A DNA stretch of 30,749 bases, from the IMG/VR virus record IMGVR_UViG_3300032265_001880, positions 1-30,749 of that record; one strand, written 5' to 3'. Position 1 is the stretch's first letter. Each line of letters begins with the position of its first letter. The notes beneath the pieces were generated by a model. It worked only from the letters and a program-made list of their open reading frames with translations, had not been told where the DNA came from and searched no databases. This document shows, piece after piece, positions 479-3,494 of the stretch. Position numbers and translations under genes: made by a program. This stretch comes from a virus.

Positions 479-1978
479 TTAAGCTATTCCGTATTGTATG
501 TCCATGATTGCTGGTCTATTGCTTTTAGGTATAATATTTTGAGCAACAGTAATTGAACCATGTTGTATATTTGTTGTTGAAACATTAATTGGTTGACCTG
601 ATTTTTGTGTGGTTTTAGACACTTTCTGCATTTCAGGTACGGGCTTTAATATATCTTCTGGATTTTCTACATATGATAACTTACCAGAAGAATCTTTTTG
701 TAACACTTCAAAATGAAGATGTGGTCCGGTTGAACGACCTGTAGAGCCTACCTCACCAATTACTTGACCTGCTTCCACTCTACCTTCAGGAACTTGTATT
801 TTGTTTAAATGAAAATATTTTGTTACAGTACCATCATCACCAGTAATTTCAACAAAGTTACCTCTTTCAGAATCACTACCTGATTTTACTGTACCCGAAT
901 TGGCTGCCATGACTGGCGTACCAGTTGCTGCAACAATATCAATACCTTTGTGATGTTGAACTTTTCCTGTGACAGGATTAACTCTTTCACCTGTACCAGA
1001 ACTTATGTTTGGAGAACCTTTAATAGGAGAAACTAAATTTGGTGTTACTGGTTCACCTTTTATAGATTTTTCAATATTTGGTATGTTTGCGACTCGTTTT
1101 TCTGCTTGAGCTTCAGGTTCTTTAGGTCTTTCAAATTTTCTAGTAAATTCTTTAGTTGCTTCTTCAGAAGATTTATATGTTTTACCAGTATATTCTTTGC
1201 CTTCTTTTTCTTGTAACGCAAAATCTATTTGTTTTTTCCAATCTGTTTGCCAATCTTTACCAACAAACTTTTTCATTTCTTCAAATCGTTCATTATGATG
1301 TTGAAATAAACCACCAGATGTACCATCATCACCAATAACTCCTGGCATAAAACTAGATTCTGCTTGAATGTTGGCCAATATACCAATAGACTGTTCGTGT
1401 GACAGACCTTTTTCTTTAGTTAGATAGTCATACATTTCTTTTGATTTAACTGTATCTAATCTTCCTGCTTTATCGCTGCCGGTGGTAAAAATTGAATCTA
1501 AATTAAATTTAGCAAAAACATCTTTAGATAACAAAACGCCACCTAAAGCTAAAGCGCTTAAGGCGGCCATTTTTGATTTACTACCAAATTTAGATTTTTT
1601 TCCTTCTGGTGCTTTTCCATCTAAAGCACTAATGAGTTCATCTAATTGTCTATCTTTTCTTTCTGTAAATTCTTTTCTATATTTGACATCTTTTTTATTT
1701 TCTATTTCTGTGTATTCTTCCAATAATGACATGAAATTATACATTTTACCCAAAAGGTCAGCAGTAGAATCACCTCTTCTGGTTTGGCGAAAAACTTTAG
1801 GTCCAATATTTGTATGTTGTGAATTTTGTTTTCTTCTAGGATTAGGTTTAAATGCAGAAGTTAAACCTCCTAAAATGGAAGATTGCATAAAGTCTTGATA
1901 AGATGGCATAGCATTAATTTGCTGACCTTTTTCCTCAGCAAGAGTAAGTGCTTTAGGAGTTAATTCGTAATCTTCCAT
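479..1978 (-). CDS. Tail-associated peptidoglycan hydrolase: lysozyme-like domain plus M23 endopeptidase
   Basis: A 499-residue protein with two predicted cell-wall domains. Residues about 180-300 resemble phage tail lysozymes (Phage_lysozyme2 type): GLSHEQSIGILANIQAESSF puts a likely catalytic Glu at E207, followed by SGGLFQHH and a helical tail. Residues about 318-440 are an M23 (LytM-like) metallopeptidase: H343 and D347 (HKGID) with H420 and H422 (GPHLHFE) form the HxxxD...HxH zinc site, and H390 (YFHL) is also typical. Together they would cut glycan and peptide during penetration. Residues 1-130 are charged and helical, followed by a short hydrophobic segment (about 137-152) that may be membrane-active or packed in the tail. 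There is no signal peptide. The ATG (1976-1978) directly follows the stop of the gp26 -1-frame extension (TAAATG). This gene probably replaces the lysozyme domain of T4 gp5, which is missing from the spike genes on the other strand. Confidence 0.88.
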   Translation of the reverse strand: MEDYELTPKALTLAEEKGQQINAMPSYQDFMQSSILGGLTSAFKPNPRRKQNSQHTNIGPKVFRQTRRGDSTADLLGKMYNFMSLLEEYTEIENKKDVKYRKEFTERKDRQLDELISALDGKAPEGKKSKFGSKSKMAALSALALGGVLLSKDVFAKFNLDSIFTTGSDKAGRLDTVKSKEMYDYLTKEKGLSHEQSIGILANIQAESSFMPGVIGDDGTSGGLFQHHNERFEEMKKFVGKDWQTDWKKQIDFALQEKEGKEYTGKTYKSSEEATKEFTRKFERPKEPEAQAEKRVANIPNIEKSIKGEPVTPNLVSPIKGSPNISSGTGERVNPVTGKVQHHKGIDIVAATGTPVMAANSGTVKSGSDSERGNFVEITGDDGTVTKYFHLNKIQVPEGRVEAGQVIGEVGSTGRSTGPHLHFEVLQKDSSGKLSYVENPEDILKPVPEMQKVSKTTQKSGQPINVSTTNIQHGSITVAQNIIPKSNRPAIMDIQYGIA

Positions 1979-2182
1979 TTATCGTTTTCTTGATGCCTGT
2001 TGTTGTTTTATCTTCTCGTTTTCTTCCTCAATATACTGTATTAACATATTCACATAGATATCTCTCTCCCACGGTATCATATTTTCAAGTTCCGTGAGAG
2101 AATACTTATGGTGTTGCATCAAAGAGAAATTAGTTGTATAGTAATTTCTCAAATTGTCATGACGAAATGTTACTCGAAAAAA
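1979..2182 (-). CDS. -1 frame extension of gp26 (candidate programmed-frameshift product)
   Basis: The frame one base back from gp26 is open from the slippery run at 2182-2176 to a TAA at 1981-1979. A -1 slip would replace the last gp26 residue (E241) with 65 new residues, giving a product of about 305 residues. The extension reads as real protein: RVTFRHDNLRNYYTTNF, then LMQHHKYSLTELENM, IPWERDIYVNMLIQY and a Lys/Glu/Gln-rich tail. The HHKYSLTELENM...WERDIYV pattern recalls the C-terminal halves of tail-assembly chaperone frameshift products. The only good internal ATG (in SLMQHH) lacks a clear Shine-Dalgarno and would drop about 20 protein-like residues. Its stop touches the hydrolase start codon. 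The protein may correspond functionally to T4 gp51, but I cannot show homology. Alternatives are a separate short gene or a sequencing undercall in the T run. Confidence 0.72.
   Translation of the reverse strand, partial: FFRVTFRHDNLRNYYTTNFSLMQHHKYSLTELENMIPWERDIYVNMLIQYIEEENEKIKQQQASRKR
2124..2150 (-). other. 9-bp perfect stem-loop downstream of the slippery site
   Basis: The mRNA from the minus strand contains GAGAAATTA, a 9-base loop and TAATTTCTC, a perfect 9-bp stem. It starts about 25 bases after the slippery heptamer, inside the extension. That spacer is longer than the 5-9 bases usual for a frameshift stimulator, so its role is uncertain; it could also form part of a larger fold. 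The pairing itself is plain in the sequence. Confidence 0.5.
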
Positions 2183-2895
2183 CTTTCGAGGCCTTCCAAC
2201 TCAATATTGTGGTCAAATCCACATTTACTACATTTAATTTCAACATTTTTTTTAAGTTTTGGAAGATTATCAAAAAATACTTCCAACTTTGAAAACTGTT
2301 CTTGTTGTAGTGATTCAATCCATTTCATTAGTTCTTCTCTTGGTTCTTCACTAGCATAATAATATTGTTCACCATCAAAAACATATTCAATACTGTCAGC
2401 AACTATTTCAAATGCAACTTCTGCTGCTGTTTGTTTTTTATTCAGTTTTTCTACCAATGAAAATTCTGGATATTTTAGCTTGACACTAATTTTGTCCGTT
2501 AATTCAATAATATCATTGGATTTATTATTCTGTTCTACTTGAATGTCCAATAAATTAAAACTTACTTCCATTTTATTTTTACATTCTTTATCATCTACAA
2601 TATGATTACAAATGTATTTGTTTTCTACCAATTCACCTACAGACCTTGCACGAAGGTTGATGAAATAGTATTCAACATCTACAACAGGCAAAGTATTAAC
2701 ATCAATACCTTCTGTAATAGTACAATTTGTTAATACCTGTTTAATGTTTCTTTCAATGGTTTCTTTATCATCAGCTTCCATCGCCATTAACAAATTTTTC
2801 TGTTCTTTAACTAAGAAAGGTCTAAATCTAATATGTTTCTTAGATAATGGTAAATTCAGTTCGTAGACTGGTGTATCAATTTTTGGCAAAGCCAT
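2170..2895 (-). CDS. 26: Baseplate hub subunit / tail assembly protein, T4 gp26-like
   Basis: A 241-residue protein of the T4 gp26-type baseplate family (T4 gp26 is 208 residues). It opens with MALPKIDTPVYELNLPLSKK followed by RFRPFLVKEQKNLLMAME, the typical start of this family. Four cysteines in two groups, C96/C105 and C222/C225 (KCSKCGFDHN), look like a zinc-ribbon pair. In T4, gp26 acts in assembly of the central hub of the baseplate. The start has a strong Shine-Dalgarno (AGGAG on the minus strand at 2903-2907). The gene lies between the tail-tube-family gene and the hydrolase, in a leftward operon. Its 3' end carries a slippery heptamer and an overlapping -1 frame, so a long form is likely. 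The family call is confident; the exact T4 counterpart is less so. Confidence 0.85.
   Translation of the reverse strand: MALPKIDTPVYELNLPLSKKHIRFRPFLVKEQKNLLMAMEADDKETIERNIKQVLTNCTITEGIDVNTLPVVDVEYYFINLRARSVGELVENKYICNHIVDDKECKNKMEVSFNLLDIQVEQNNKSNDIIELTDKISVKLKYPEFSLVEKLNKKQTAAEVAFEIVADSIEYVFDGEQYYYASEEPREELMKWIESLQQEQFSKLEVFFDNLPKLKKNVEIKCSKCGFDHNIELEGLESFFE
2176..2182 (-). promoter_or_regulatory. Candidate -1 ribosomal slippery heptamer T TTT TTC
   Basis: On the minus strand the last gp26 codons read AGT TTT TTC GAG TAA. The heptamer T TTT TTC fits X XXY YYZ in the gp26 frame, so both P- and A-site Phe tRNAs can re-pair after a -1 slip. It sits two codons before the gp26 stop, a usual place for such sites. 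It also lies in the second half of a small inverted repeat, CTCGAAA/TTTCGAG (2184-2190 and 2173-2179). Confidence 0.65.
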
Positions 2896-2915: not shown

Positions 2916-3494
2916 TCAAAATAGAGCACTATTAATAACCTGTGTTCCAATATTTTTAACAATATCTTTCAATGTTGTTGTTGTCCAGTTGGTGTATGCA
3001 AATACTACTGCCAACTTATGGTGACCATCAGTTGACCAATCTAAATCTAATTGGTTAACTGCAATAGGGAAAGCGTCAATTAATTGAGCCTGATAACTTA
3101 AATTATTATTCACATCATATTGATTAACCAAAATGCTGGTAACATAATTTGATTTATAATTAAAATTATAGTTTGAAGTTGGGTTGATAGATTCTATCCA
3201 TCCTTCAAATAAAATCTTTTCTGCCATGTCATCTGATACAATGAATATAAATGTTGATTCATTATATTGTGTACGATATGGTACTTTTTGTGTTGGTGCA
3301 GAACCAATTTTTCTTTCTGTTGTTTCTAAAGAACGACCTGGCATATCAGCTGCTTCACAACGGAAAGAAAGCTGTCTGGAATCTTTTACATAAGGTAAAA
3401 GAATTAAAGGAATATTAATGGTAACATCAAACCTATTCGGTCTGGCAACATCTTTATTAAAACTACTTTTAAAATTTGCAATGGAACCTGCCAT
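2916..3494 (-). CDS. Tail tube family protein (T4 gp19/gp54-like)
   Basis: A 192-residue protein with the T4 gp19 tail-tube pattern: DVARPNRFDVTI near the N-terminus, LSFRCEAADMPGRSLETTER after it, a central DDMAEKILFEGWIESINP, then NYVTSILVNQYD and a C-terminal FPIAVNQLDLDWSTDG followed by AVVFAYTNW. T4 gp19 (163 residues) forms the inner tube; gp54 is a related, longer protein that starts the tube on the baseplate. Length and motifs fit gp19, but gp19 usually sits near gp18 and gp20, whereas this copy lies among hub genes, so a specialised tube-initiator or second tube paralogue is possible. The TGA stop lies 20 bases before gp26, and the ATG directly follows the stop of the upstream gene (TAAATG), which suggests coupled translation. 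Confidence 0.82.
   Translation of the reverse strand: MAGSIANFKSSFNKDVARPNRFDVTINIPLILLPYVKDSRQLSFRCEAADMPGRSLETTERKIGSAPTQKVPYRTQYNESTFIFIVSDDMAEKILFEGWIESINPTSNYNFNYKSNYVTSILVNQYDVNNNLSYQAQLIDAFPIAVNQLDLDWSTDGHHKLAVVFAYTNWTTTTLKDIVKNIGTQVINSALF

Follow-up and report, generated by a model that had tools for sequence, protein, structure and literature searches.

A predicted −1 ribosomal frameshift joins gp26 to a gp51-family tail in a T4-like tail assembly chaperone gene

The gp26 locus and its open −1 frame

The DNA analysed here, called the window in the following, is a stretch of 30,749 nucleotides from a virus (IMG/VR record IMGVR_UViG_3300032265_001880, positions 1 to 30,749). It contains a gp26-like open reading frame between two other tail genes, all of them on the minus strand. 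The features of this locus are given below in the direction of transcription.

2916..3494, minus strand: tail tube protein gene, directly upstream (phrog_45 tail tube, E 2.1e-35)
2170..2895, minus strand: gp26-like ORF, predicted short form of the tail assembly chaperone (TAC-N), 241 aa (PF12322 T4_baseplate, E 3e-59; phrog_150, E 6.6e-65)
2188..2198, minus strand: Shine-Dalgarno-like purine stretch (GGAAGG and neighbours), candidate stimulator of the shift (from anti-SD duplex energy)
2176..2182, minus strand: slippery heptamer T TTT TTC, predicted −1 frameshift site (invariant in scorable relatives; zero synonymous diversity)
1979..2176, minus strand: −1 frame tail, assigned to the gp51 family, 65 codons plus TAA (phrog_634, E 3.5e-31; dN/dS 0.06)
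479..1978, minus strand: tail lysozyme and M23 peptidase gene, directly downstream (PF18013, E 1.7e-19; PF01551, E 4.3e-27)

The PF12322 match spans residues 9-241 of the window gp26, and the ORF has its own Shine-Dalgarno sequence, AAGGAG, upstream. Its 3' end reads GAA AGT TTT TTC GAG TAA, with the TAA at 2172-2170. Within this end, T TTT TTC (plus-strand coordinates 2182..2176) lies two codons ahead of the stop in a codon phase that fits the pattern X XXY YYZ. Past the heptamer, reading in the −1 frame yields 65 further residues (RVTFRHDNL...QQQASRKR) up to a stop at 1981-1979 that adjoins the ATG of the next gene at 1978. The predicted long form (TAC-NC) has 305 aa. The original prediction had described a gp26 frame ending AGT TTT TTC GAG TAA around this heptamer, followed by a 65-codon open −1 frame whose stop abuts the next ATG; the sequence is as described and the coordinates bear it out.

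The combination of heptamer and open −1 frame is more than chance. A scan of the 24 ORFs of the window for in-frame XXXYYYZ heptamers, with X being A, T or G and Y being A or T, finds 67 of them. Only at the heptamer of gp26 does the −1 frame run past the 0-frame stop without closing, and only this heptamer sits 60 nt or less from a stop.

Two further observations concern the surroundings of the locus. The lysozyme/M23 gene at 479..1978 occupies the usual place of a tape measure gene and shows only partial tape-measure matches; in HTVC008M, a tape-measure-like gene is located one small ORF further downstream. At the contig end, positions 1-130 of the window hold roughly three copies of a ~45-base direct repeat unit (AGAAACCAAAGTTCCTTTAGTTGCTGATGTTGCAGTTGGTCT).

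Selection at the junction and alternative readings

Selection on the heptamer site is strong. We compared 80 viral contigs with gp26 relatives, 79 of which are scorable; the remaining one (L044) ends before the gp26 stop. Each of these 79 close relatives (61-100% identical) has TTTTTTC at position −10 relative to the stop and in an unchanged phase, and their −1 frame stays open for about 60 codons save where the contig ends. A separate set of cyanophage-type loci has the heptamer in 80/80, with a −1 frame open for 54-61 codons in all but two, one of which (L129) ends 39 bases past the gp26 stop, so that its tail is cut off. The terminal Phe-Phe pair is coded TTT TTC in 53 of 53 distinct relatives, compared to 6 of 54 for the other Phe-Phe pairs of the same genes. 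Among 148 testable columns in the 53 distinct relatives, near-zero synonymous diversity is observed at E-S-F-F (GAA AGT TTT TTC) only; outside it, no two-column window of the gene falls below 0.39. The 0-frame stop is retained one codon after the Phe-Phe pair, its sequence varying between TAA and TAG. Conservation of the heptamer and of both frames, which the original prediction had proposed to examine in related phages, extends to every scorable relative.

Only the −1 frame of the tail shows the substitution pattern of an evolving protein. In this frame dN/dS is 0.06 and there are no stops, compared to 1.4 and 2.9 for the other two frames. The first alternative to be weighed is the one found in most public records, where the tail stands as an independent small gene, gp51, that has its own start. 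Such a separate gp51 is given for P-SSM2, S-PM2, KVP40, phiM12 and others, and the gp26 stop shares bases with an ATG in KVP40, Moby, Cr30, RHph_Y68 and phiM12. However, the annotated starts differ from phage to phage, down to a gp51 of only 31 aa in ACG-2014a, and elsewhere the tail is absent from the record; no joined gp26-gp51 CDS is found among the public records examined. In the clade of the window, the −1 frame has its first ATG 18, 19 or 32 codons downstream of the heptamer, within a conserved block, and the sequence before it is conserved as protein. There is no Shine-Dalgarno sequence ahead of these first tail ATGs, where mean anti-SD pairing is +0.3 kcal/mol versus −7.4 kcal/mol at the gp26 start. 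In this clade, the −1 tail lacks a usable start codon. In several distant relatives the overlap takes the form TAATG or TGATG and coupled initiation could take place there, yet the slippery site is kept. A separate gene also leaves the invariant TTTTTTC and the stop-free −1 frame up to the shift site unexplained, and we consider it improbable. A tail gene that starts on its own and lacks a slippery site, the arrangement named in the original prediction as contradicting a frameshift, occurs neither here nor in close relatives.

A shade less probable still is transcriptional slippage, in which RNA polymerase would add or drop a base on the T run and thereby create fused-frame mRNAs. The T run comprises six bases (seven in Melnitz, HTVC008M, phiM12 and Cr30), and slippage of this kind would give the same protein as a ribosomal shift. 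Efficient transcriptional slippage in bacteria usually needs a run of at least eight bases, for which six is short. Furthermore, what selection maintains is a heptamer suited to tandem slippage and locked to the codon phase, whose seventh base may be C, G, T or A; it does not lengthen the run. That a sequencing or assembly error broke up a single fused gene is barely credible: homopolymer runs are error-prone, but the six-T site recurs in the 79 scorable contigs from many metagenomes, in the 80 cyanophage-type loci and in isolated phages, and the 0-frame stop is maintained despite its varying sequence, so that the seventh T considered in the original prediction is excluded in practice.

The gp51 tail, the chaperone fold and their spread

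Profile comparisons place the tail in the gp51 family. The phrog_634 family that it matches is annotated as 'baseplate hub assembly catalyst' (gp51). In one pairwise hhalign comparison, the tail profile aligns to residues 200-245 of the T4 gp51 family (probability 92%, E 7.6e-7), and the T4 gp26 family, used as a control against the tail profile, gives no match. T4 gp51 (249 aa) consists of the PF12322 T4_baseplate domain at residues 1-201, followed by the same tail. Since T4 gp51 is made up of a gp26-like domain and this tail, T4 has the short form (gene 26) and the long form (gene 51) encoded separately. The proposal that one gene merges the roles of gp26 and gp51 gains support both from the phrog_634 assignment and from the alignment of the tail with the T4 gp51 C-terminus behind the gp26-like domain. 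No second PF12322 match is present in the ten proteins scanned on this 30.7-kb fragment of the genome. One of the loci collected (L205:2001-2746) holds a T4-type gp51 gene with a frame break in the middle of the gene, probably a sequencing indel.

The N-terminal domain of gp26 models like the tail assembly chaperone of HK97. In the AlphaFold model of gp26 (pLDDT 88), residues 1-95 match 3fgx (Z 7.8), YqbN 3klu (7.4), HK97 2ob9 (7.1) and 5ir0 (5.7) in VIA-align, the next match having a Z of 2.8; Z values under 8 can reflect a common arrangement and are not conclusive alone. For the HK97 chaperone 2ob9, the rmsd is 4.1 over 84 aligned residues. The chaperone fold is seen by VIA-align only: Foldseek of the gp26 model against the PDB gives no significant match, and a sequence search of the PDB returns chance matches only. 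The model of the T4 gp51-like long form, from an alignment of only 8 sequences, has no clear structural match. Read together with the predicted frameshift and with a tail tube gene lying just upstream, these Z values support a G/GT-like tail assembly chaperone.

Equivalent heptamers (TTTTTTC/T/G/A) end gp26 in P-SSM2, S-PM2, P-TIM40, KVP40, PX29, Moby, phiM12, Cr30 and RHph_Y68, and also in Melnitz, HTVC008M, D490, S-N03, ACG-2014a, ACG-2014j, S-MbCM6 and XG4. Kyanoviridae are among the groups with the heptamer at this place. In T4 and Kimel, short and long forms lie in separate genes. Two phages show variants of the junction. The Pseudoalteromonas phage XG4 (L095) has the shift site T TTT TTA, and an ATG overlaps its stop. 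In the Synechococcus phage S-N03 (L211, 1484-1510) the stop follows directly after the heptamer, GATTTTTTC TAG, so that it comes one codon sooner than in other cyanophages.

Ackermannviridae (L180-L194, L092, L098) carry a 53-codon −1 tail of the gp51 family after gp26, which is unannotated in S115 and K751. Their gp26-tail junction has neither a slippery heptamer nor a nearby ATG. The junction sequence GA[AG]ATTTTCATTTAATTTTTG is invariant in 15 loci. When two loci with ~71% identity between their gp26 proteins are compared, no identical stretch is longer than the 32 nt at the junction. A candidate non-canonical site lies within the invariant GA[AG] ATT TTC ATT TAA TTT TTG; if true, such a −1 site would not be of a standard kind for tail chaperones. 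We regard it as possible, but rather doubtful, that the frameshift dates back to the ancestor of the T4-like supergroup and occurs in nearly all of it, that T4 and its closest kin lost it when the two forms were split into separate genes, and that Ackermannviridae retained the −1 tail but swapped the heptamer for a non-canonical site; the short/long-form tree, which is midpoint-rooted with long branches, does not settle which arrangement is older.

Proposed mechanism and comparison with known systems

We conclude that the locus very probably encodes a chaperone pair of the lambda G/GT type from one gene via −1 ribosomal frameshifting. Most ribosomes would terminate after SFFE and release the 241-aa short form, gp26. 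A fraction would slip back by one base on T TTT TTC, where tRNA-Phe in the P and A sites would re-pair from TTT TTC to TTT TTT. The slipped ribosomes would then read CGA GTA and onwards through the gp51 tail, producing the long form of 305 aa. With lambda G/GT as the model, the short form may coat the tape measure protein via its N-terminal chaperone fold, while the minor long form may recruit tail tube subunits through its helical tail. What we infer here is that ribosomes slip, how often they do so and how the two forms share the work, the last of these being carried over from lambda.

Possible stimulators of the shift were considered on both sides of the heptamer. For consistent RNA structure downstream, there is no clear signal in 53 sequences: the mean z is ~0 in the first 47 nt and about −1 in longer windows, versus −0.5 further downstream. 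Upstream of the heptamer, the mean anti-SD duplex energy is −6.3 kcal/mol versus −1.0 kcal/mol at control positions. It is possible, and we suggest this tentatively, that the GGAAGG stretch stimulates the shift; synonymous sites of its Glu-Gly codons are unconstrained, and the Glu-Gly-Leu motif is conserved at the protein level too.

A frameshift at this junction would resolve the repeated mis-annotation of gp51 in the T4-like records examined, where it appears as a stump, with inconsistent starts, or is missed. It would link T4 gp51, the 'hub assembly catalyst', to the tail assembly chaperone family, and it points to the cultured phages S-PM2, P-SSM2 and KVP40 as carriers of the candidate shift.

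The likeness to lambda G/GT is that one gene gives a short and a long form by a −1 shift at a heptamer near the short-form stop, and that this gene follows the tail tube gene. The systems differ in the slippery site, which is G GGA AAG in lambda and T TTT TTC here. They differ also in the protein, which belongs here to the PF12322 family with an added Cys-rich region and is larger than lambda G. The T4 hub assembly chaperones gp26 and gp51 are of one family with the window protein, T4 gp26 corresponding to the short form and T4 gp51 to the gp26-like domain with the same tail. In contrast to the window, the two T4 genes are separate, have diverged and lie on opposite strands, and the end of T4 gp26 lacks a slippery site.

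T4 gp51 is essential and its role has long been unclear (PMC3004832). Cyanophage and vibriophage gp51 is reported to be without the first ~200 N-terminal residues (Sullivan et al. 2010, PMC3037559). The same tail sequence at the same place is read there as a reduced stand-alone gene, whereas a frameshift onto the gp51 tail would supply the missing N-terminus and explain the ~200 residues that cyanophage and vibriophage gp51 lack.

Frameshifting in tail assembly chaperone genes is general in long-tailed phages (Xu, Hendrix and Duda 2004, as cited in PMC9024508 and PMC10885494). The original prediction had been uncertain of a precedent in T4-like phages. This doubt is answered in part: Vladimirov, Gautam and Davidson (2022, Virology 566:9-15) reportedly identifies the tail assembly chaperone genes of T4-like phages, and it is cited for separate short and long genes in some of them (PMC10885494) and for poly-T frameshift signals within their TAC-N genes (PMC12846349). 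For a published gp26/gp51 frameshift, searches of the open literature found only citations. A −1 frameshift with a conserved GTTTTT, argued from alignment alone, is described for the chaperone locus of Pseudomonas phage Adele (PMC12846349). Adele belongs to another phage family, Vandenendeviridae, and the comparison with it concerns the −1 shift. Frameshifting of T4-like chaperones is already known in kind, and the window locus adds a case that sequence comparison supports strongly.
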